NCBI RefSeq assembly: GCF_003008595.1
Contig: NZ_CP027669.1
Coordinates: forward strand, 2,542,001 to 2,606,000
DNA length: 64,000 bases
Source: Simplicispira suum
Lineage (GTDB): Bacteria; Pseudomonadota; Gammaproteobacteria; Burkholderiales; Burkholderiaceae_C
Direction of reading: 5' to 3'
Shown here piece by piece: positions 388 to 62,552 of the stretch (its first letter is position 1; each line of letters starts with the position of its first letter). The notes beneath the pieces were generated by a model, which was given only the letters and a program-made list of their open reading frames with translations, searched no databases and was not told the origin of the DNA. A program made the position numbers and the translations under genes.

Positions 388-1119
388 ATGAACCCAGTTT
401 CCCGCTCCGGCGGCCGCGCCAGCCATGCGCTTCGCCCGGTGCGCATCACGCGCCAGTTCACCATGCATGCCGAAGGCGCTGTGCTGATCGAGTTTGGCAA
501 TACGCGTGTGCTGTGCACCGCATCGGTCGAAGAAAAAGTGCCCCCGCACCAGCGCGGCAGCGGGAAAGGTTGGGTCACGGCGGAATACGGCATGCTGCCG
601 CGCGCCACGCACAAGCGCAGCGACCGCGAAGCTGCCAAGGGCAAGCAAAGTGGGCGCACCCAGGAGATCCAGCGCCTCATTGGCCGGTCGCTGCGCGCGG
701 TGTTTGATCTGGAGGCCCTGGGAGAGCGCAGCATCGTGCTCGACTGTGATGTGCTGCAGGCCGACGGCGGCACCCGCACGGCCGCCATCACCGGCGCGTG
801 GGTGGCCGCGCAGGACGCTGTCGCTTCGCTCGTAGCGCGCGGCCTGCTGGCGCGCTCCCCCATTCGGGACGCCGTGGCGGCCGTCTCGGTGGGCGTGGTG
901 GACGGAGTGCCCCTGCTTGACCTGGACTACCCCGAGGACGCCGCCTGCGACACCGACATGAACGTGGTTATGACCGGTGCTGGACACTTCGTGGAAGTGC
1001 AGGGCACGGCAGAAGGCGCGGCATTCAGTCGCGCAGAAATGAATGCGCTGCTTGACCTGGCGCAGCAAGGCATTGCCGAGTTGGTACTGTTGCAGCGTGA
1101 ATCGCTCCTAAAAAAGTAG
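388..1119 (+). CDS. rph: Ribonuclease PH (tRNA 3'-end phosphorolytic exoribonuclease)
   Basis: RNase PH removes nucleotides beyond the CCA end of tRNA precursors using phosphate. The 243-residue product has the usual length and motifs: [17 protein letters not shown] at the start, [28 protein letters not shown], and a metal/phosphate-site region [21 protein letters not shown] chose ATG 388; an in-frame TTG at 379 would add three residues and has no better ribosome site. The last residues (ESLLKK) and the TAG stop are encoded by a copy of the double-hairpin repeat that also forms the spacer to rdgB. First gene of an rph-rdgB-hemW run conserved in betaproteobacteria. Assignment is certain. Confidence 0.97.
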
Positions 1120-1157
1120 CTGCTGGCGATTTCTGGATAAGCGCTGGAGGCATATTT
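1104..1157 (+). repeat. Double-hairpin repeat family A, copy 1 (rph end / rdgB leader)
   Basis: This matches the family pattern: a first arm ending in GTAGCTGCT, a second hairpin with GATTTCTGGATAAGCGC, then GGAGGC and a short T run. The first arm encodes the last residues and the stop (TAG within GTAGC) of rph. The CTGGAGG at 1144-1150 sits about 11 nt before the rdgB ATG and probably serves as its Shine-Dalgarno sequence. The second hairpin has lost perfect pairing, so this is a diverged copy. Confidence 0.75.
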
Positions 1158-1161
1158 GACT

Positions 1162-1764
1162 ATGAAAATCGTTCTTGCATCGAACAACCTGGGCAAGCTT
1201 GCAGAACTGCAGGTCTTGTTCGCCCCGCTGGGCGTCTCGCTGGTGCGCCAGGCCGAGCTGGGCGTGGGCGAAGCCGAAGAACCGCATCGCACATTTGTCG
1301 AGAACGCGCTGGCCAAAGCACGCTTTGCCGCACAGCACACGGGCCTGCCGGCACTGGCTGACGATGCGGGCTTGTGCGTGGATGCATTCGGCGGGCTGCC
1401 GGGCGTCGACACGGCGCACTACGCCGTGCAGTTCGGCTACCCCAAGGGCGACGACAACAACGTGCGCGCCCTGCTCGAACAAATGCGGGGCCAGGACAAT
1501 CGCCGCGCCGCGCTGGTCAGCACCCTGGTGGCGCTGCGCAGCCCGCAAGACCCAGAGCCCTTGATTGCCGTGGGCCGGGTCGTGGGCGAGATCGCGCTTG
1601 CGCCACGGGGTGGGCACGGTTTTGGCTTTGATCCGGTGATGGTCATTCCTGAACTCGGCAAGACCTTTGCCGAGCTTGATCCGGAAGTCAAAAACAGCCT
1701 GAGCCACCGGGGCCGCGCGGCTCGCAGCATGCTGGCCTTGATGCGCGCCAACTGGATGGGATGA
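1162..1764 (+). CDS. rdgB: Non-canonical purine NTP pyrophosphatase (dITP/XTP, HAM1 family)
   Basis: Hydrolyses dITP, dUTP-like damaged purines and XTP to monophosphates, keeping deaminated bases out of DNA and RNA. The 200-residue product has the diagnostic N-terminus KIVLASNNLGKLAEL, then TFVENALAKARFAA, LADDAGLCVDAFGG, and the C-terminal GFDPV and SHRGRA motifs. ATG 1162 is preferred over an in-frame TTG at 1156 because GGAGG at 1146-1150 is correctly spaced. It follows rph by 42 nt occupied by a repeat copy and precedes hemW by 33 nt, so the three are probably one operon. Confidence 0.96.
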   Translation: MKIVLASNNLGKLAELQVLFAPLGVSLVRQAELGVGEAEEPHRTFVENALAKARFAAQHTGLPALADDAGLCVDAFGGLPGVDTAHYAVQFGYPKGDDNNVRALLEQMRGQDNRRAALVSTLVALRSPQDPEPLIAVGRVVGEIALAPRGGHGFGFDPVMVIPELGKTFAELDPEVKNSLSHRGRAARSMLALMRANWMG

Positions 1765-5890: not shown

Positions 5891-5940
5891 GCCAACTTGT
5901 AAGGCGGAGCGACCAGCAAATGCAGGGCGCCAAAATTCTA

Positions 5941-5995
5941 GTAAAAATGGGCTCTAGCGCTTATCTATAAAGCGTAGCAAGCTATAAAAAAAGAA
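5941..5995 (-). repeat. Double-hairpin repeat family A, copy 2
   Basis: Read on the minus strand: an A/T-rich first arm with TATAGCTTGCTA, a second hairpin pairing CGCTTTATAGATAAGCG, then CTAGAGCCCATTTTT. It lies between the diguanylate cyclase and tRNA-Ser and overlaps no gene. Confidence 0.8.
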
Positions 5996-6086
5996 GTAAA
6001 AATCAAGCATCCGCGCTTCATCAAGCTATTGGCATCGACCTGCAGCCTGATGAATCGCCGCCCGGATTCTCTGGTAGGTGCGCATT

Positions 6087-11756: not shown

Positions 11757-11945
11757 ACCCCCTGCGTCGCCTTCGGCGCCTCCCTGCCGCCGTCAGAGAC
11801 GACTGCTCTTCGGGCACGTCCAAGCCTGCGTCGGCAGGCTTGGAGCCGCGGCCCTCAGCCCCTTCTCTCGCTGCGCGGGAAGGGGGACGACGCCAGTGCG
11901 GCGGGGCGGCCCTTGCACGGCGTCCGCTGGCCTTGGCCCTGCAAC
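11757..11945 (+). repeat. Repeat family B, copy 1 (nadC-nadA spacer)
   Basis: Shares several blocks in the same order with 39984-40184: a hairpin AAGCCTGCG-tc-GGCAGGCTTGG (arms GCCTGC/GCAGGC), then AGCCGCG, CTCAGCCCCTTCTCTC, GGAAGGGGGACG, CCAG, CCCTTGC, CGG and CCGCTGG. The open frames across it have no family resemblance and are better explained as repeat. It fills nearly all of the gap between nadC and nadA. Confidence 0.7.
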
Positions 11946-13116: not shown

Positions 13117-13120
13117 AATT

Positions 13121-13176
13121 TGCTATTGTATTGATAGCTGTCAGCGCTTTCTACTTATGCGCTAGAGCCAATTTCT
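13121..13176 (+). repeat. Double-hairpin repeat family A, copy 3
   Basis: Starts TGCTATTGTATTGATAGC (hairpin 1), then TCAGCGCTTTCTACTTATGCGCT (hairpin 2) and AGAGCCAATTT. It begins 4 nt after the nadA stop and lies wholly between nadA and pabBC. It could act as a transcript-end structure. Confidence 0.8.
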
Positions 13177-13230
13177 CATAAGAAGAATGCGTTCCCTGAC
13201 TTCCTTCGGCTTGCTGCACCGTGCAAGGTC

Positions 13231-28811: not shown

Positions 28812-29999
28812 CTATTTTGACAGCAGCCGCATGGTCTCTTCGAGGCCTTTGAGTGACAAAGGGAACATGCGGTTGCTGGTGAGCTGCTGAATGATGCTGA
28901 TGCTCTGCCGGTATTGCCACACGCCCTGGGGTTCTGGGTTGATCCAGGCAAACTTGGGAAAGGCGTGCGTGAGCCGCTGGATCCACTCGGCGCCCGCTTC
29001 CTCGTTGTTGTATTCCACGCTGCCGCCGGGCTGCAGGATTTCGTACGGGCTCATCGTGGCGTCGCCGACAAAGATCAACTTGTAGTCCTTGTTGTACTTG
29101 CGAATGATGTCCCAGGTCGGGAATTTTTCGGCAAAGCGGCGGCGGTTGTTCTTCCACATGAAGTCGTAGACGCAGTTGTGGAAGTAATAGAACTCCAGGT
29201 GCTTGAATTCGGTCTTGACGGCGCTGAACAGTTCTTCCACCCGTTGGATGTGTTCGTCCATGGTGCCGCCCACGTCCATCAGCAGCAGTACCTTCACGTT
29301 GTTGTGCCGCTCGGGCACCATCTTGATGTCCAGGTACCCGGCGTTGGCCGCCGTGCTGCGGATGGTGTCGGGCAGGTCGAGTTCCAGCTCATGCCCCTCG
29401 CGGGCGAACTTGCGCAGCCGCCGCAGCGCCACCTTGATGTTGCGCGTGCCCAGTTCCTGCTGATCGTCGTAGTCGCGGTAGGCGCGCTGCTCCCACACTT
29501 TCACCGCGCTCTTGTTCTTGCCAGCGCCGCCGATGCGGATGCCCTGCGGGTTGTAGCCACCGTGGCCAAAGGGGCTGGTGCCGCCGGTGCCAATCCATTT
29601 GCTGCCGCCTTCGTGGCGCTCCTTTTGCTCTTCGAGGCGCTTTTTCAGCGTCTCCATGAGCTCATCCCAGCCCATCTTCTCGATGGCGGCTTTTTGCTCG
29701 GGCGTGAGTTCGTTCTCCAGGATCTTGCGCAGCCAGTCGGCGGGCACTTCCTTGGTGAAATCGGCCACCATTTCCACGCCCTTGAAGTAGGCGGCAAAGG
29801 CGCGGTCGAACTTGTCGTAGTGCTTTTCGTCCTTGACCAGCACCAGGCGCGAGAGGAAGTAGAAGTCGTCCAGGCTCCAGGCGCCTTCCGACTTCGGCCC
29901 GACCACGCCGGCTTCCAGCGCTTCGAGCAGGCTCAGGTATTCCTTGACCGAGACCGGCAACTTGGCGGAGCGCAGCGTGTAGAAGAAGTCAATGAGCAT
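28812..29999 (-). CDS. VWA-domain protein, CoxE/ViaA-like
   Basis: 395 residues. An N-terminal helical part (LIDFFYTLRSAKLPVSVKEY) is followed by a charged central region and a C-terminal von Willebrand A domain beginning VKVLLLMDVGGTMDEH. The metal-site motif DxSxS is DVGGT here, a relaxed form. The segment HGGYNPQGIRIGGAGKNKSAV is a family-typical Gly-rich loop. Such proteins pair with MoxR AAA+ ATPases as chaperone or metal-insertion machines; the MoxR gene lies just upstream in the same run, separated by an acetyltransferase gene. The ATG at 29999 directly follows a repeat copy. Confidence 0.85.
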   Translation of the reverse strand: MLIDFFYTLRSAKLPVSVKEYLSLLEALEAGVVGPKSEGAWSLDDFYFLSRLVLVKDEKHYDKFDRAFAAYFKGVEMVADFTKEVPADWLRKILENELTPEQKAAIEKMGWDELMETLKKRLEEQKERHEGGSKWIGTGGTSPFGHGGYNPQGIRIGGAGKNKSAVKVWEQRAYRDYDDQQELGTRNIKVALRRLRKFAREGHELELDLPDTIRSTAANAGYLDIKMVPERHNNVKVLLLMDVGGTMDEHIQRVEELFSAVKTEFKHLEFYYFHNCVYDFMWKNNRRRFAEKFPTWDIIRKYNKDYKLIFVGDATMSPYEILQPGGSVEYNNEEAGAEWIQRLTHAFPKFAWINPEPQGVWQYRQSISIIQQLTSNRMFPLSLKGLEETMRLLSK

Positions 30000-30008
30000 T
30001 TTTAAGTA

Positions 30009-30064
30009 TTTTCAGCCGCTAGCGCTTATGCAGATTGCGCATGCAGCTCTAAAAGAGATAGCAA
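30009..30064 (-). repeat. Double-hairpin repeat family A, copy 4 (encodes end of GNAT gene)
   Basis: Read on the minus strand: TTGCTATCTCTTTTAGAGCTG, then GCATAAGCGCTAGCGGCTGAAAAT. The reading frame of the acetyltransferase passes through the first arm and stops at TAA (30028-30026) inside it, so the last dozen residues come from the repeat. The repeat fills the space to the VWA gene start. Confidence 0.75.
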
Positions 30065-30628
30065 TTGCGCCCGTGCCTCGGGCCATTCGCCGGCGCGCAT
30101 GCTGTACATCACGGTGTCGCGGATGGTCCCGTCGCGGCGCAGTGCGTGGCCGCGGATGACGCCGTCTTTCCGGGCACCCAGGCGCTCGATGGCGCGTTGG
30201 CTGGCAAAGTTGAAGTTGTCGGTGCGCCAGCCCACGACCTTGCAACCGAGTTGGTCGAACGCGTTGCCCATCATCAGCAGCTTGCAGGTGGTGTTGACAT
30301 GGCTGCGCTGCACACTCTTGCGGTACCAGGTCCAGCCAATTTCCAGCCGTTTTACTGCCGGCAGGATGTCGTGGTAGCTGGTGCTGCCCAGGACCTCGCC
30401 CGATGCGTCGTCGCATACGGCGAACGCAAAACGGTTGCCGTCTGCGCGCATCTGCAGCGCGTTTTCGATGTAGGCACGGGTGTCTTGCGGCTCGGGCACC
30501 GAGGTGATGCGCAGCTTCCACAATTGCCCGTCGGCGGCAGCTGCGCGCAGGCCCTCTTCGTGCTCCTGGGCCAGGGGCTCCAGGCGCACGCCGTTTTGGC
30601 ACATCACCAGCGGTTGAACGAAACTCAT
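30026..30628 (-). CDS. GNAT acetyltransferase, RimJ/RimL type
   Basis: 200 residues. The segments VCDDASGEVLGSTSYHDI, RLEIGWTWYRKSVQRSHVN and GCKVVGWRTDNFNFASQRAIERLGA match the RimJ/RimL-like branch of GNAT enzymes (acetyl-CoA binding then Asn-x-x-Ser helix). It probably acetylates the N-terminus of a protein or a small amine; the substrate is unknown. The gene sits between the MoxR ATPase and VWA genes on the same strand, 16 nt after moxR, so it is in the same transcript. Its last residues (LLSLLELHAQSA) derive from a repeat copy, suggesting the original C-terminus was replaced. Confidence 0.82.
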   Translation of the reverse strand: MSFVQPLVMCQNGVRLEPLAQEHEEGLRAAAADGQLWKLRITSVPEPQDTRAYIENALQMRADGNRFAFAVCDDASGEVLGSTSYHDILPAVKRLEIGWTWYRKSVQRSHVNTTCKLLMMGNAFDQLGCKVVGWRTDNFNFASQRAIERLGARKDGVIRGHALRRDGTIRDTVMYSMRAGEWPEARAQLLSLLELHAQSA

Positions 30629-38745: not shown

Positions 38746-38754
38746 CGGATCAGA

Positions 38755-38813
38755 TTGCTATTGAAAATATAGCTAATTGCGCTTATGTATCATGCGCTAG
38801 GGGCCGTTTTTAC
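38755..38813 (+). repeat. Double-hairpin repeat family A, copy 7
   Basis: TTGCTATTGAAAATATAGC forms hairpin 1; the second arm TGCGCTTATGTATCATGCGCTAGGGGCC follows, then GTTTTTA. It lies between the exporter and ParA genes; its end is about 20 nt before the ParA ATG. Confidence 0.82.
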
Positions 38814-38833
38814 CTAAAATTTTGGAGTCTCCC

Positions 38834-39983: not shown

Positions 39984-40184
39984 ACCCCCTGAGCGGCTGG
40001 TGTGCTCCGTGCAGTCGCCAGGCGCGGCTCCAAGCCTGCGCAGGCAGGCTTGGAGCCGCGCCTCTCAGCCCCTTCTCTCTCGCATCGCTTCGCGATGTGA
40101 GGAAGGGGGACGCCACCAGCGCCTGTACCGAGGATTGCTGGCGACCCTTGCGCGGTGGCCGCTGGTCCGGGCCATGTCCCGTGC
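39984..40184 (+). repeat. Repeat family B, copy 2 (MaoC-LysR spacer)
   Basis: Shares ordered blocks with the nadC-nadA spacer: CCAAGCCTGCG-ca-GGCAGGCTTGGAG, AGCCGCG, CTCAGCCCCTTCTCTC, GGAAGGGGGACG, CCAG and a GC-rich end with CCCTTGCGCGG and CCGCTGG. It also has a short hairpin CATCGC-ttc-GCGATG. There is no credible gene in it. Confidence 0.7.
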
Positions 40185-50220: not shown

Positions 50221-51410
50221 ACAGCGCGCAGCCACTCTACGATCTTGCCCCGCTGCTGCGCATGCTGGCACTGGGCGCGCTCATCGCGCTGGTCCCGCTG
50301 GCCTGGGTGCTCTGGCGCAACCGCGGCGCACAGCGCTCGCGCCGCTGGCAGGCGCTGACCGTGCTGACCCTGTTTCTCACCTTTGACCTGGTGTTGTTTG
50401 GCGCCTTCACTCGCTTGACCGACTCCGGCCTGGGCTGCCCGGATTGGCCGGGGTGCTACGGCAACGCCAGCCCGTTGGGAGCGCACGCAGACATTTCAGC
50501 GGCGCAGACGGCGTTGCCCAGCGGCCCCGTGACCCACGGCAAAGCTTGGGTGGAGATGGTGCATCGCTATCTCGCTACCAGCGTCGGAGCGTTGATCACC
50601 GTCTTGGCCGTGGCTGCGTGGCTAGGGTGGTGGCGTGCACGCCGCGCTGGACGAAGTACTTTCGACGGTCCAAGCCCCGGCTGGGCGACGCTGACCCTGG
50701 TCTGGGTTTGTATACAGGGCGCGTTTGGCGCACTGACGGTGACCATGAAGCTGTTCCCCGCTATCGTCACCCTGCATCTTGCTGGTGGTGTGGTGCTTTT
50801 GGCCTTGCTGTGCGTGCAGGCAGTGCGCCAGACGGCGGTCAAAACCGACGAGATCACGCTGACCCAACCCGCCGGACTGCGCAAGCTTGCCTGGTGGGGG
50901 CTCGCCATGCTGAGCCTCCAGGTGCTGCTGGGAGGCTGGGTGAGCACCAACTACGCCGTGTTGGCATGCAGCAGCTTTCCCTCCTGTCAGGGGAGCTGGT
51001 GGCCGGACATGAATTTCGCCCAAGGTTTTTCGCTGTGGCGTCATCTGGGGGTTTTGTCCGATGGGCGTCCCATCGATTTTTCTGCACTGACCGCCATCCA
51101 CTACACGCACCGCTTGTTTTCTTACGCGGTGTTTGTCGTCCTTGGCTTTCTGGCTTGGCGACTGCACCGCGCAGGTGCGGGACTTTGGTCCCGGCAGGCG
51201 CGATGGCTGGCGGGCCTGTTGTTGCTGCAGTTCATGACCGGGTTGAGCAATGTGGTGCTTGACTGGCCTTTGCCGGCGGCGGTGCTTCATACCGGCGGCG
51301 CAGCGGCGCTGGTCGTGGTGCTTACCTGGATTCTTGAAACGCAGCGCCCGCGCGCACAGGCTGCTCCCGCGCCCATGGTCCAACCGCGTATCGTGGAGGC
51401 ACAGCTATGA
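50217..51410 (+). CDS. ctaA: Heme A synthase (COX15/CtaA)
   Basis: 397 residues with eight predicted spans. [21 protein letters not shown] near residue 65 and [17 protein letters not shown] hold the expected first Cys pair and heme His; [34 protein letters not shown] and [15 protein letters not shown] hold the others. The enzyme oxidises heme O to heme A. ATG 50217 overlaps the previous stop (ATGA). Cotranscribed with ctaB. Confidence 0.95.
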
Positions 51411-52309
51411 CGACACTGACTTCTGGAGAGCTGGGCCTGCGCTCTCGCGTGGCTCAGTACTATGCGTTGGCCAAGCCGCGCGTCATCCAGCTCATCGTTT
51501 TCTGCGCCCTGATCGGCATGGTGCTGGCTGTGCCTGGATGGCCTACGGCGGCCGAGCTGCTGCGTATGGCGATTGCCTGCCTGGGCATCTGGCTCGTGGC
51601 TGGTGCTGCTGCGGCTTTCAACTGCCTCGTCGAAAAAGGTATTGATTCGCGCATGAAGCGCACGTCCTGGAGGCCCACGGCCAAAGGCGAGCTGTCGGAC
51701 AGGCAGGCGCTGATGTTCTCTGCCGTGCTGGTGAGCGTCGGCTCGCTCATCCTGTACATCTGGATCAACCCGCTGACCATGTGGCTGACATTTGCCACCT
51801 TTGTCGGCTATGCGGTGATCTACACCTTGGTGCTCAAACCCCTGACGCCACAGAACATCGTCATCGGCGGTGCCTCGGGCGCCATGCCGCCGGTACTGGG
51901 CTGGGCGGCCATGCGGGGCGACGTAGGGCCGGAGGCACTGATCCTCTTCCTCATCATCTTTCTGTGGACGCCGCCGCATTTCTGGGCGCTGGCTCTGTAC
52001 CGCGTCGAAGACTACCGCAAGGCGGGCCTGCCCATGCTGCCGGTCACGCATGGCAACGTCTTTACCCGTCTGCAGGTGTTCCTGTACACCTTGATCCTGT
52101 TTGCCGGCTGCCTGATGCCTTTTGTCTATGGCATGAGTTCCTGGATTTATCTGGTGGCCGCCGTGGTGTTCAGCACCGGTTTTTGCGTGTATGGCTTTGC
52201 GCTGTGGCGAAACTATTCCGACGCCCTGGCCCGGCGTACTTTTCGTTTTTCACTGATCCACCTGAGCGGCGTGTTTGCCGCTCTGCTGGTGGATCACTAC
52301 CTTTTGTGA
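51407..52309 (+). CDS. ctaB: Heme O synthase (protoheme IX farnesyltransferase)
   Basis: 300 residues, UbiA-type prenyltransferase with about nine spans. [19 protein letters not shown], the Asp-containing [33 protein letters not shown] and [18 protein letters not shown] are family motifs. Transfers farnesyl to heme B; its product goes to CtaA, whose gene overlaps this start by ATGA. Confidence 0.96.
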
Positions 52310-52316
52310 ATCCTCC

Positions 52317-52928
52317 ATGTTCCGTAGAAATGCTCTTCAATTAATAGCTATTAGCGCTTTATCCATAAGCGCTGGAGGCCTTTTGACCGCTTGTTCCAAG
52401 TCTGCACCAGAGTTTCGCGGCGTGGACATCACTGGCGCCGAGTACGCACATGATTTCGCCTTGCCCGACCAGGACGGCAAGGTCCGCAGTCTCAAGGATT
52501 TCGCTGGCAAGGTGGTGGTGGTGTTCTTTGGCTACACCCAGTGTCCCGACGTTTGTCCGGCCACGATGCAGGAACTTGCGCAGGTCAAGGAGATGCTGGG
52601 CCCCGATGGCGAGCGCCTGCAAGCGGTGTTTGTCACCGTAGATCCAGAGCGTGATACGCCCGAGCTGCTCAAGGCCTACATGGCCAATTTCGATCCCAGC
52701 TTTGTCGCGCTGCGTGGAGACGACGCGCAGACGATCGCTGTTGCCAAAGACTTCAAGATCTATTTCAAGAAGGTGGACGGCCAGACGCCGACGAGCTACA
52801 CGATGGACCATTCGGCGGGCAGCTACATTTTTGACCCGGCAGGGCGGGTGCGCGTCTACAGCCGCTACGGAAGCGGCCCGGACGCCGTAGCGCAGGATGT
52901 GCGCAGTTTGCTGAACGAGGCGAAATAA
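52317..52928 (+). CDS. SCO1/SenC copper chaperone, lipoprotein
   Basis: 203 residues. The signal MFRRNALQLIAISALSISAG ends in a lipobox (LLTAC), so it is a lipoprotein. The periplasmic domain has FGYTQCPDVCPATMQELAQ (CxxxC copper ligands), FVTVDPERDTPELL and MDHSAGSYIFDPAGRV (third ligand His). It delivers copper to the CuA site of subunit II. The hydrophobic core of the signal is encoded by a copy of repeat family A. It follows ctaB by 7 nt. Confidence 0.93.
   Translation: MFRRNALQLIAISALSISAGGLLTACSKSAPEFRGVDITGAEYAHDFALPDQDGKVRSLKDFAGKVVVVFFGYTQCPDVCPATMQELAQVKEMLGPDGERLQAVFVTVDPERDTPELLKAYMANFDPSFVALRGDDAQTIAVAKDFKIYFKKVDGQTPTSYTMDHSAGSYIFDPAGRVRVYSRYGSGPDAVAQDVRSLLNEAK
52331..52386 (+). 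repeat. Double-hairpin repeat family A, copy 8 (encodes SCO1 signal peptide)
   Basis: TGCTCTTCAATTAATAGCTA, then TTAGCGCTTTATCCATAAGC, GCTGGAGGCC and TTTT. It lies inside the SCO1 gene. The frame reads Asn-Ala-Leu-Gln-Leu-Ile-Ala-Ile-Ser-Ala-Leu-Ser-Ile-Ser-Ala-Gly-Gly-Leu-Leu, that is the whole hydrophobic core of the lipoprotein signal. Confidence 0.88.
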
Positions 52929-60456: not shown

Positions 60457-61803
60457 ATGAATGCTATTAAAAAGATAGCTGCTCGCGCTTGTGCAATAAG
60501 CGCTGGAGTGGTTTTTTACTCACAATCTGCCTGGGCCCTGCTGCCCATTGAGCATTGGACCGAGCCCAGCGGCGCGCAGGTCTGGCTGGTGCAAAGCCCG
60601 GCGCTGCCCATGGTGGATGTGCAGATTGATTTTGACGCCGGCAGCCGGCGCGACCCGGCGGCTCAGGCCGGGCTGGCCAGTGCCGCAGCCACCATGATTA
60701 CCAAGGGTGTTCGCGCCGTGGGTGATGCCCCGGCCATCGACGAGAACGCTTTGGGCGAAGCCTGGGCCGACCTGGGGGCCTCGTTCGCGGCCGGCGCCGA
60801 CAGCGACGCATTGAGCTTTTCGCTGCGCTCGCTGACTGATCCGCCCCTGCTGGCCCGCGCGGCGCAACTGGCTTCGCGCCAGATGGGTCAGCCTGCCTGG
60901 CCCGAGGAGATCTGGCAGCGCGAGCGTGCCCGCTGGAGTGCAGCGATTCGCGAAGCCGACACGCGCCCCGGCACCGTGGCCGGCAAGGCGTTTGCCAAAG
61001 CGGTTTACGGTTCGCACCCCTATGGCCAGCGGGCCACAGCCGAAACGCTTGCGCAGATCAACGTGGCCGACCTGCGTGCCTACGCCGAGCGCAATATACA
61101 AGCCTGCCGCGCCAGGGTGGCCATCGTGGGCGCCGTCTCGCGCCCGCAGGCCCAGACCTTGGTGAGCACCCTGTTGGCGCACCTTCCGAGTGGCGCGCCC
61201 TGCACAGCCCTGCCGCCGGTGCCCGCAGTACAGCCCTTGGCAAAGGCCGAGGAAATCAAGATTCCCTTTCAGTCGGCGCAGGCCTATGTGCTGATTGGCC
61301 AGCCCGGCTTCAAACGCAGCGACCCGGATTTTCTGGCACTGCTGGTGGGCAACCACATTCTGGGTGGTGGGGGCTTCACCTCGCGCCTGACCGAAGAGGT
61401 GCGCGAGAAGCGCGGCCTGAGCTACAGCGTCTACAGCCAGTTCGCCCCCGGCCTGAATGCCGGCGCGTTTGCCATCAGTCTGCAGACGCGTCCCGACCAG
61501 GCGGCCGAGGCACTGAAAGTTTCGCGCGCAGTGCTGGAGCGCTTTGTGGCTGAAGGCCCCACCGAAGCGGAACTGCAAGCCGCCAAAGACAACCTGATTG
61601 GCGGATTCGCGCTGCGCATCGACAGCAACCGCAAACTGCTGGGCAACGTGGTGAACATCGCCACCAATGGCTTGCCGCTCGACTATCTGGAGGGTTGGAC
61701 CGACCGCGTGGCCGCGCTCACCGTGGCCGACGTGCGCGCCGCCATGGCGCGCAAGCTGAGCCCTGAGCGCATGGTGACCGTGGTGCTGGGAGCGCAGCCT
61801 TGA
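60457..61803 (+). CDS. M16 peptidase-like protein without zinc motif, partner of the upstream gene
   Basis: 448 residues. The HxxEH is replaced by AGLASAAATM, so it cannot bind zinc alone. The C-terminal GGGFTSRLTEEVREKRGLSYSVY carries the Arg and Tyr substrate pair. Such non-catalytic and catalytic pairs form heterodimers (compare mitochondrial processing peptidase alpha/beta). The signal peptide NAIKKIAARACAISAGVVF comes from a repeat copy. ATG 60457 has AGGATT upstream. A third ORF, rsmD, begins overlapping the stop. Confidence 0.88.
   Translation: MNAIKKIAARACAISAGVVFYSQSAWALLPIEHWTEPSGAQVWLVQSPALPMVDVQIDFDAGSRRDPAAQAGLASAAATMITKGVRAVGDAPAIDENALGEAWADLGASFAAGADSDALSFSLRSLTDPPLLARAAQLASRQMGQPAWPEEIWQRERARWSAAIREADTRPGTVAGKAFAKAVYGSHPYGQRATAETLAQINVADLRAYAERNIQACRARVAIVGAVSRPQAQTLVSTLLAHLPSGAPCTALPPVPAVQPLAKAEEIKIPFQSAQAYVLIGQPGFKRSDPDFLALLVGNHILGGGGFTSRLTEEVREKRGLSYSVYSQFAPGLNAGAFAISLQTRPDQAAEALKVSRAVLERFVAEGPTEAELQAAKDNLIGGFALRIDSNRKLLGNVVNIATNGLPLDYLEGWTDRVAALTVADVRAAMARKLSPERMVTVVLGAQP
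60462..60516 (+). repeat. Double-hairpin repeat family A, copy 10 (encodes signal peptide of second M16 protein)
   Basis: TGCTATTAAAAAGATAGCTG, GCGCTT-gtgcaat-AAGCGC (perfect hairpin 2), TGGAGTG and TTTTTT. It lies wholly within the coding region, right after ATGA. In the frame of the gene the copy reads Ala-Ile-Lys-Lys-Ile-Ala-Ala-Arg-Ala-Cys-Ala-Ile-Ser-Ala-Gly-Val-Val-Phe, which is a Sec signal. Confidence 0.9.
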
Positions 61804-61856: not shown

Positions 61857-62429
61857 ATGCGTACCAAGCTCGCCGCCGCACCCGGCGAGGTGCGCATCAT
61901 TGGTGGTCAATGGAAGCGCACGCGCCTGCCGGTGGCCAAGCTCGAAGGGCTGCGCCCCACGCCCGACCGGGTGCGGGAAACGCTGTTCAACTGGCTCGGT
62001 CAGGATCTCACTGGCTGGCGCTGCCTGGACGCCTTTGCCGGGACCGGCGCCCTGGGTTTCGAGGCCGCTTCGCGTGGCGCAGTTGCCGTGCAGTTGGTGG
62101 AAAGCGAACCGTCACTGGTAGCGCAGTTGCACGCATTCCAGCAGCGCTTGCAGGCCGCGGCCGTGCGCGTGCAGCGCGGCGACGGTGTGACGGCCTTGCG
62201 CCAGAGTGCACCTGCCAGCCTGGACCTGGTGCTGATCGATCCGCCATTTGGTAGCCAGCTGTTTCAGCCTGCGCTGCAGGCGGCCGTGCCGGCACTGGCG
62301 GCCAAGGGGTTTATCTACCTCGAAGCCCCCGAGCGCTGGAGCGATGAGGCGCTGCAGGCGCTGGGTCTGGTGCTGCACCGCCATCTGCGTGCCGGTGCCG
62401 TGCATGCCCATTTGCTTCAGAAAGAATAG
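61857..62429 (+). CDS. rsmD: 16S rRNA (guanine-966-N2)-methyltransferase
   Basis: 190 residues. VRIIGGQWKRTRLPV, TPDRVRETLFNWLGQD, CLDAFAGTGALGFEAASRGA (SAM site) and LVLIDPPFGSQLF (catalytic DPPF) define RsmD, which methylates G966 of 16S rRNA during 30S assembly. ATG 61857 was chosen; the frame is open to a TTG at 61800 that overlaps the previous stop and to a GTG at 61824, so the start is uncertain. The final residues and TAG stop lie in a repeat copy. coaD follows on the same strand, a common linkage. Confidence 0.92.
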   Translation: MRTKLAAAPGEVRIIGGQWKRTRLPVAKLEGLRPTPDRVRETLFNWLGQDLTGWRCLDAFAGTGALGFEAASRGAVAVQLVESEPSLVAQLHAFQQRLQAAAVRVQRGDGVTALRQSAPASLDLVLIDPPFGSQLFQPALQAAVPALAAKGFIYLEAPERWSDEALQALGLVLHRHLRAGAVHAHLLQKE

Positions 62430-62470
62430 CTGGTAGCGCTTATGGAATAAGCGCCGGAGGCTATTTTTGC
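62424..62470 (+). repeat. Double-hairpin repeat family A, copy 11 (rsmD stop)
   Basis: GAATAGCTGGTAGCGCTTAT, GGA, ATAAGCGCCGGAGGC, then TATTTTT. The TAG in ATAGC is the rsmD stop codon. The first arm is truncated; the second hairpin AGCGCTTAT/ATAAGCGC is nearly perfect. Confidence 0.85.
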
Positions 62471-62552
62471 CTCAAATTTCAGGACTGCGCGTGGCAGCGC
62501 TTGTCAACCCATAATGGTTGCCCGCGCAGCGCACAGCCATTGAAAGAAGCCC

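Follow-up and report, generated by a model that had tools for sequence, protein, structure and literature searches.

REPs lie at the 3' ends of genes. Other short repeats have been described within genes: the Rickettsia and Wolbachia palindromic elements (RPE/WPE; Ogata and co-workers) are short palindromic repeats that lie in frame inside conserved genes, according to the available part of PMC2229807. The Yersinia/enterobacterial repeats RU-2 and RU-1f (Delihas 2007) have a hydrophobic frame that forms part of predicted signals or membrane segments, as in YPO1552 and YE2643 (available parts of PMC2229807 and PMC2759123). The BRE of Bordetella, Polaromonas and Delftia are 75-91 bp long, 69% GC in Bordetella and sometimes tandem, as the accessible text of PMC3110155 describes them. 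In the open-licence literature that we searched, we found no description of the 71-bp element reported here.

We analysed a 64,000-nucleotide stretch of DNA from Simplicispira suum (the window), which occupies positions 2,542,001-2,606,000 of the 3.92-Mb contig of a 4.15-Mb genome of 3 contigs. An earlier note on this DNA had claimed that a repeat forms the lipoprotein signal of a SCO1-like protein in the same frame in which it forms the signal of an M16 peptidase, and both copies are indeed present in that frame:

52317..52928, plus strand, SCO1/SenC lipoprotein gene, ATG at 52317, 203 aa
52328..52398, plus strand, repeat copy that makes up most of the SCO1 signal, with its ATAGCT core at 52344
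52317..52391, plus strand, SCO1 signal peptide MFRRNALQLIAISALSISAGGLLTA, with Cys at 52392-52394 and presumed cleavage
60457..61803, plus strand, M16 peptidase-family gene (Peptidase_M16_C, Pfam)
60459..60529, plus strand, repeat copy in the M16 signal, same frame as in SCO1

The product of 52317-52928 is matched by Pfam SCO1-SenC at 1.3e-46, and the SCO1 ATG follows 7 nt after the end of the upstream ORF (51407-52309). Among titled records, the SCO1 proteins closest to it come from a Burkholderiaceae MAG (99%), a Giesbergeria MAG (90%) and Simplicispira hankyongi (84%). The N-terminus, MFRRNALQLIAISALSISAGGLLTAC, includes the peptide given in the earlier note and ends in the lipobox-like LTAC, which we take to be the lipobox. 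Most of the lipoprotein signal is encoded by the repeat copy, inside which codons 5-23 (NALQLIAISALSISAGGLL) fall; because the match to the profile ends at about position 63 of 87, the last part of the copy looks like gene sequence. The copy scores 51.6 bits against a profile made without the SCO1, M16, LolA and DsbD copies (the other two signal copies, Chalcone_3 and DUF1775, were never part of it) and 64 bits (E 3e-9) against model R1, whose training included the SCO1 copy, and it has 0 mismatches to the 25-letter core. Chance is ruled out as the source of its membership in the repeat. The residue pattern previously read as common to the SCO1 and M16 signals was borne out overall, with three variable residues, not four, between N-A and I-A.

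In the aligned copies, information is confined to positions -16 to +54 around ATAGCT, which gives a unit of 71 bp with a consensus of roughly AATTGCTATTAWWTTRATAGCTGCTAGCGCTTNNNNNATAAGCGCTAGAGGCCAWTTTNACTTAAAATTTT, where W, R and N are mixed positions and several other letters are merely the commonest. Fixation is 86-100% for the letters of ATAGCT and 43-51% in the loop. Positions -5 to -3 read TTT or AAA and positions 38 to 41 read ATTT, TTTT or AAAA, as if A/T-richness alone mattered there. The 25-letter core matches 229 places in the genome with at most 3 mismatches, and the reversed pattern matches 0. A profile search with R1 scored at least 150 places, and from the stretches around these, plus a few more, we examined 183 distinct copies scoring 20 bits or more; since the core count is 229, some tens of copies lie outside the 183. 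Genes were called by a codon-usage script, without annotation, and frames were read through each copy; because the codons of the repeat look non-coding, automatic gene starts are wrong near it. The window holds these further copies:

1100..1170, plus strand, repeat copy whose 5' part lies over the 3' end of a called gene
5931..6001, minus strand, repeat copy
13118..13188, plus strand, repeat copy
29996..30066, minus strand, degenerate repeat copy, 29.8 bits
32329..32399, minus strand, degenerate repeat copy, 34.9 bits
36028..36106, plus strand, weak match of 21.4 bits, included in the 183
38753..38823, plus strand, repeat copy
62410..62480, plus strand, repeat copy that provides the stop of the rsmD-like gene before it, present or absent among relatives

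A second, unrelated palindromic repeat (TCCAAGCCTGCG..GCAGGCTTGGA) has two copies in the window that are 92% alike, at 11819-11869 and 40029-40079.

The normal location of the 71-bp repeat is at gene ends. Gaps that bear a copy are co-directional in 108 cases, convergent in 49 and divergent in 7, as against 150, 26 and 81 among gaps of at least 50 nt without a copy, and many of the copies extend over the 3' end of a called gene. The 183 copies are split equally between the strands (92/91). The even spacing that an organising site might have was not seen among them (CV 1.07). All copies among the places listed (60; 150; 100 of the 229) were on contig 1 and none on contigs 2 and 3; as these two smaller contigs amount to 5.7% of the genome, the probability that 0 of 150 places would fall on them is about 1.5e-4.

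The copy at 62410..62480 is flanked by genes that are presumably rsmD and coaD. The last codons and the stop of the rsmD-like gene (window 62380-62480) come from the repeat. The gap between the two genes measures 10 nt in two genomes and 94 nt, with the repeat, in a same-genus relative, so that at this site the 71-bp unit comes or goes whole; in this one pair of empty and filled sites the flanks were strongly diverged where a target-site duplication was sought. In MoeA (L066:1524-2876) an in-frame antisense copy forms a linker of about 29 extra residues relative to E. coli MoeA (PDB 1fc5); a 37-residue linker at this site is common to 103 of the 120 homologues listed, Acidovorax-type homologues included. 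The discrete unit at one orthologous site, the in-frame MoeA insert and the scarcity of copies within genes and in divergent gaps all favour a reading in which the copies are selfish or REP-like insertions, tolerated because signals accept nearly any hydrophobic stretch, with no force acting on the DNA sequence. We consider this reading unlikely: it predicts uniform decay, in place of the sharply uneven conservation of ATAGCT and the loop, and a drift over some ten genera to GC-rich synonymous codons, where the spelling of the repeat has instead been kept (see below). Mobility was considered and rejected: matches to the consensus were found in 4 of 72,556 plasmid records and in 0 of 50,697 phage records.

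At the signals themselves, repeat-free orthologues from three genomes (G002, G005 and G008) align without gaps, have about equal length and keep a residual likeness, for example KKYIARTCVLGAG against KKIAARACAISAG in M16, which gives no support to insertion at the signals. The repeat-free signals are probably eroded relics. Alternatively, the motif may have grown in place.

The reading frame used in SCO1 and M16 has no stop in 108 of the 177 copies that remain when the six signal copies are set aside, whereas the other two sense frames are stop-free in only 2 and 22, and the antisense frames in 73, 55 and 13. The shared frame of SCO1 and M16 is thus no coincidence, as it is the sole sense frame that usually lacks stops, and a gene that reads through a sense copy will mostly use it. 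For the same reason the identical frame, which had been offered as independent evidence, does not count as such. This frame translates as (F/N)AIKxIAASAYxISAxGxF, a sequence that suits the hydrophobic core of a signal peptide. Among the 177 non-signal copies, 56 are both open and hydrophobic in this frame (KD of at least 1.6 over 11 residues, a cut-off that we set), against 5.0% of mononucleotide shuffles. The suggestion that the frame is inherently signal-like was well founded to this extent, and it was based on two N-terminal copies where there are in fact six. These six of the 183 copies (proteins identified by Pfam, signals read from sequence) are located as follows:

SCO1, window 52317
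M16, window 60457
chalcone-isomerase-like protein (Chalcone_3), L085
DsbD, L094
DUF1775 protein, L147
LolA, L165

Under uniform placement, 2.03 copies would be expected to fall in frame in the first 40 codons of a called gene, and so the comparison with random placement proposed by the earlier note came out in its favour, modestly in this plain form (6 observed, Poisson p = 0.018). For exported genes the expectation is 0.41, an estimate that assumes that 20% of genes are exported. A stronger signal emerges when coding copies are compared with one another. Three sense copies in the signal frame are internal (in YhhN, an APH-type kinase and ECH_2), so that 6 of 9 such coding copies are N-terminal against an expected 8% or so (2.03 divided by the 26 expected in a sense coding frame; p = 1.5e-5). 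Eight antisense copies are internal, including those in HemD, a NuoF-like protein, PurK, HsdR and MoeA, and the N-terminal to internal ratio is therefore 6/3 for sense and 0/8 for antisense copies (Fisher p = 0.007). If the internal sense copy in a different frame (L034) is counted in, the two p-values become 3.6e-5 and 0.011; dropping any one antisense row, of which L123 is a weak one (24 bits), gives p = 0.010. The counts are drawn from 25 read-through rows (13 sense and 12 antisense), of which L034, antisense L086, L108, L109 and L136 and sense L110, L132 and L148 stand outside the 6/3 and 0/8; in all of these but L034, either the gene's own start comes after the element or the call is unclear.

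It had further been proposed that the repeat is a possible source of new exported proteins. This was not supported: the proteins belong to established families and are not new, and their orthologues outside the genus mostly start, by eye, with other signal-like N-termini. The repeat supplied or rewrote a signal, and the creation of proteins by the repeat is without support.

We scored the 5' ends of orthologues with the profile that lacks the SCO1, M16, LolA and DsbD copies. Within the genus, and with our own genome included, the repeat is present in 20 of 23 SCO1 loci and in 15 of the 18 M16 loci that have a 5' end. It is likewise present in 14 of 16 evaluable LolA loci, in 14 of 17 evaluable DsbD loci (cut-off 7 bits; three are weak, at 7.4, 9.0 and 13.0), in 8 of 8 Chalcone_3 loci, two of them with unsure starts, and in 3 of 4 DUF1775 loci. 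The misses for SCO1, M16, LolA and DsbD all fall in G002, G005 and G008, which are the genomes with 0, 1 and 0 copies of the repeat; the DUF1775 miss is in G010, despite the 15 copies in that genome. Among named Comamonadaceae, 57 of 80 SCO1 loci carry the copy at the orthologous place (at least 12 bits). These belong to Acidovorax, Simplicispira, part of Giesbergeria, Diaphorobacter, Alicycliphilus, Extensimonas, Paenacidovorax, Oryzisolibacter, Paracidovorax valerianellae, Comamonas granuli, Polaromonas and untyped MAGs.

The presence of the repeat at the signal follows the presence of the repeat family in the genome. In 49 genomes (48 named ones and our own; cut-offs 12 bits and 4 copies), 24 have both the signal repeat and the family, 22 have neither, 3 have a weak signal match alone (L270, L271 and L281, at 12-16 bits with 0-1 copies) and 0 have the family alone. 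Giesbergeria anulus, Acidovorax sp. Root219 and A1169, Paracidovorax anthurii, Paracidovorax konjaci and Diaphorobacter aerolatus are among the genomes with 0-2 copies. The Spearman correlation is 0.86 over the 49 genomes and 0.84 after correction for locus GC in 48. GC was rejected as a confounder, as the median at the SCO1 locus is 0.617 in genomes with fewer than 4 copies and 0.653 in the others, and few-copy genomes are thus not GC-richer. In a tree of the mature part of SCO1, in which 31 of the 76 inner branches lack support, repeat-free rows are nested among repeat-bearing ones; Acidovorax sp. Root219, A1169 and S00198 (98*), for instance, fall inside a mostly Acidovorax group (98*). Independent contrasts, of which there were 2 well-supported pairs (6 on the best tree), were not significant, and went in the same direction or showed no difference, never the opposite.

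Erosion where the family has been lost, together with hundreds of copies, equal strands, a gene-end bias and a preferred reading orientation at the signals, is what would be seen if the motif were a self-recognition tag in the manner of DUS/USS, maintained by biased uptake and recombination, with signals tolerating the tag in frame. Biases toward gene ends and in orientation are known for uptake sequences, according to the accessible part of PMC2346458. At 71 bp, however, the unit far exceeds the 10-12 bases of such tags, and it comes and goes whole. We regard a drive of this kind as distinctly unlikely, with the qualification that it overlaps with the explanation that we prefer below, as it names one possible force.

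Beyond what the earlier note had claimed, we found that synonymous positions within the signals follow the sequence of the repeat. At third positions where the motif reaches 80% A/T or more, SCO1 codons match the repeat at 405 of 513 sites against 30.4 expected (65 genes). The same test gave 116/120 for M16 (14.2 expected), 73/112 for DsbD (9.1), 69/112 for LolA (5.6), 46/57 for Chalcone_3 (3.7) and 19/21 for DUF1775 (0.8), so that the six families sum to 728 of 935 against about 64 expected, an excess that is inflated because rows were picked by repeat score and registered on the motif. For M16 this choice retained 15 of the 18 same-genus loci with a 5' end, the other three coming from genomes of 0-1 copies. 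DsbD and LolA are less tightly frozen than the other signal families. Where the motif has C at a third position, C is kept likewise. At the motif site of SCO1, Ile is spelled ATA in 56 of 57 cases (64 rows), compared with 6 of 268 in the mature parts, and in the codon that follows, Ala is spelled GCT in 60 of 61, compared with 58 of 1128. This exact DNA spelling at the signals argues that the repeat itself is probably functional.

Gene starts often have A/T-rich codons, and signals are hydrophobic; ordinary signals could for these reasons come to resemble the repeat by chance or through codon usage. This is extremely improbable given that repeat-free SCO1 signals use ATA in only 2 of 21 Ile codons, that third-position C is kept as well, and that the SCO1 copy reaches its 51.6 bits against a profile from which it was excluded. 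A further possibility is concerted evolution, in which other copies would overwrite the signal copies again and again by gene conversion. It would account for both the frozen synonymous sites and the dependence on family size, but variable and loop letters (TATCC in 16 of 64) agree more often between SCO1 orthologues than between the copies of one genome: identity at variable motif positions is 0.605 among SCO1 copies and 0.378 among the non-signal copies of our own genome. The variable bases common to SCO1 orthologues are thus evidence against continual conversion, although protein constraint may partly explain the sharing; on balance we find concerted evolution very unlikely.

We also considered an RNA structure as the conserved feature. 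Across 176 copies, each of the stem pairs 9/29 to 15/23 has 0-1 compensatory changes and is disrupted in 1-45 copies; a main stem that breaks without compensation favours the sequence over an RNA hairpin as the conserved feature, and z-scores of five copies ranged from -0.40 to -2.37. The adjoining pairs 8/30, 16/22 and 17/21 have 20, 11 and 11 double changes, and given these there may be some pairing constraint. Apart from two tRNAs, an Rfam gathering scan of the window gave no hits. We found no trans-acting factor that binds the motif.

Alongside the observed position, frame and orthologous occurrence of the copies, their shared variable bases, the freezing of synonymous sites and the co-occurrence of signal spelling with the family, we consider it reasonably probable that this is a repeat that has been exapted recurrently and that is under constraint as DNA, probably as the recognition site of a putative trans-acting factor. 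The repeat is abundant in Acidovorax/Simplicispira-type Comamonadaceae, normally at gene ends, and where a copy stood at the 5' end of a gene for an exported protein it would have been taken over as the signal, in at least six genes, and then inherited. A family-wide force would keep the nucleotide sequence of each copy, whether coding or not, and the likeliest such force would be a trans-acting factor that recognises the motif as DNA. Were the recognition system lost, the copies would erode and the signal would persist solely as a hydrophobic stretch of protein. We advance more tentatively, at somewhat less than even confidence, the stronger proposal that the motif, recognised by a putative chromosomal system, is under such strong constraint as DNA that it dictates the codons and even the amino acids in the signals of the core periplasmic proteins SCO1, DsbD, LolA and M16 throughout a bacterial family, and that with loss of the system the motif is erased and the signals are rewritten. 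The repeat offers a case, followed through many genomes, in which a dispersed element has repeatedly been exapted as a signal peptide. The freezing of synonymous sites allows protein-level and DNA-level selection to be told apart in a single sequence. That the family is patchily absent also provides a route to the putative factor, whose gene should be missing along with it.

In comparison with known systems, the 71-bp repeat is like REP/BIME in its more than 100 copies, palindromic core and 3'-end placement, and unlike them in length and sequence, as far as the available part of PMC2817692 describes them. The GT(A/G)G head on a short hairpin, as defined there, was absent by eye from the 71-bp profile, which has an inner palindrome and none of the terminal inverted repeats of a MITE. 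A link to RAYT was rejected: a single Y1_Tnp (PF01797) gene was found (G000:C1:2421692-2422024), with no repeat in its 3.3 kb locus. The resemblance to BRE lies in short, mostly intergenic elements, some of them within coding sequence, that are reported from Comamonadaceae too; the 71-bp repeat is A/T-rich, and is set apart from BRE by the description in the accessible text of PMC3110155 rather than by sequence. With DUS/USS it has in common an abundant chromosomal motif, a gene-end bias and a preferred coding orientation; the tags are 10-12 bases in what PMC2346458 makes available, against 71 bp for a repeat that we know from sequence alone. Like RPE, it has in-frame copies inside conserved protein genes, but its sense copies concentrate at signal peptides and its synonymous spelling is kept across genera, which distinguishes it from RPE as partially documented in the source cited above. 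The closest precedent is provided by the RU repeats, whose hydrophobic frame also forms part of predicted signal peptides; in the portions of the reports available, the RU cases concern putative proteins of a single genus or species group, whereas here there are six families, mostly well known, in several genera. The 71-bp repeat is distinct from these precedents in the number of conserved host proteins, in the breadth of genera and in the freezing of synonymous sites.
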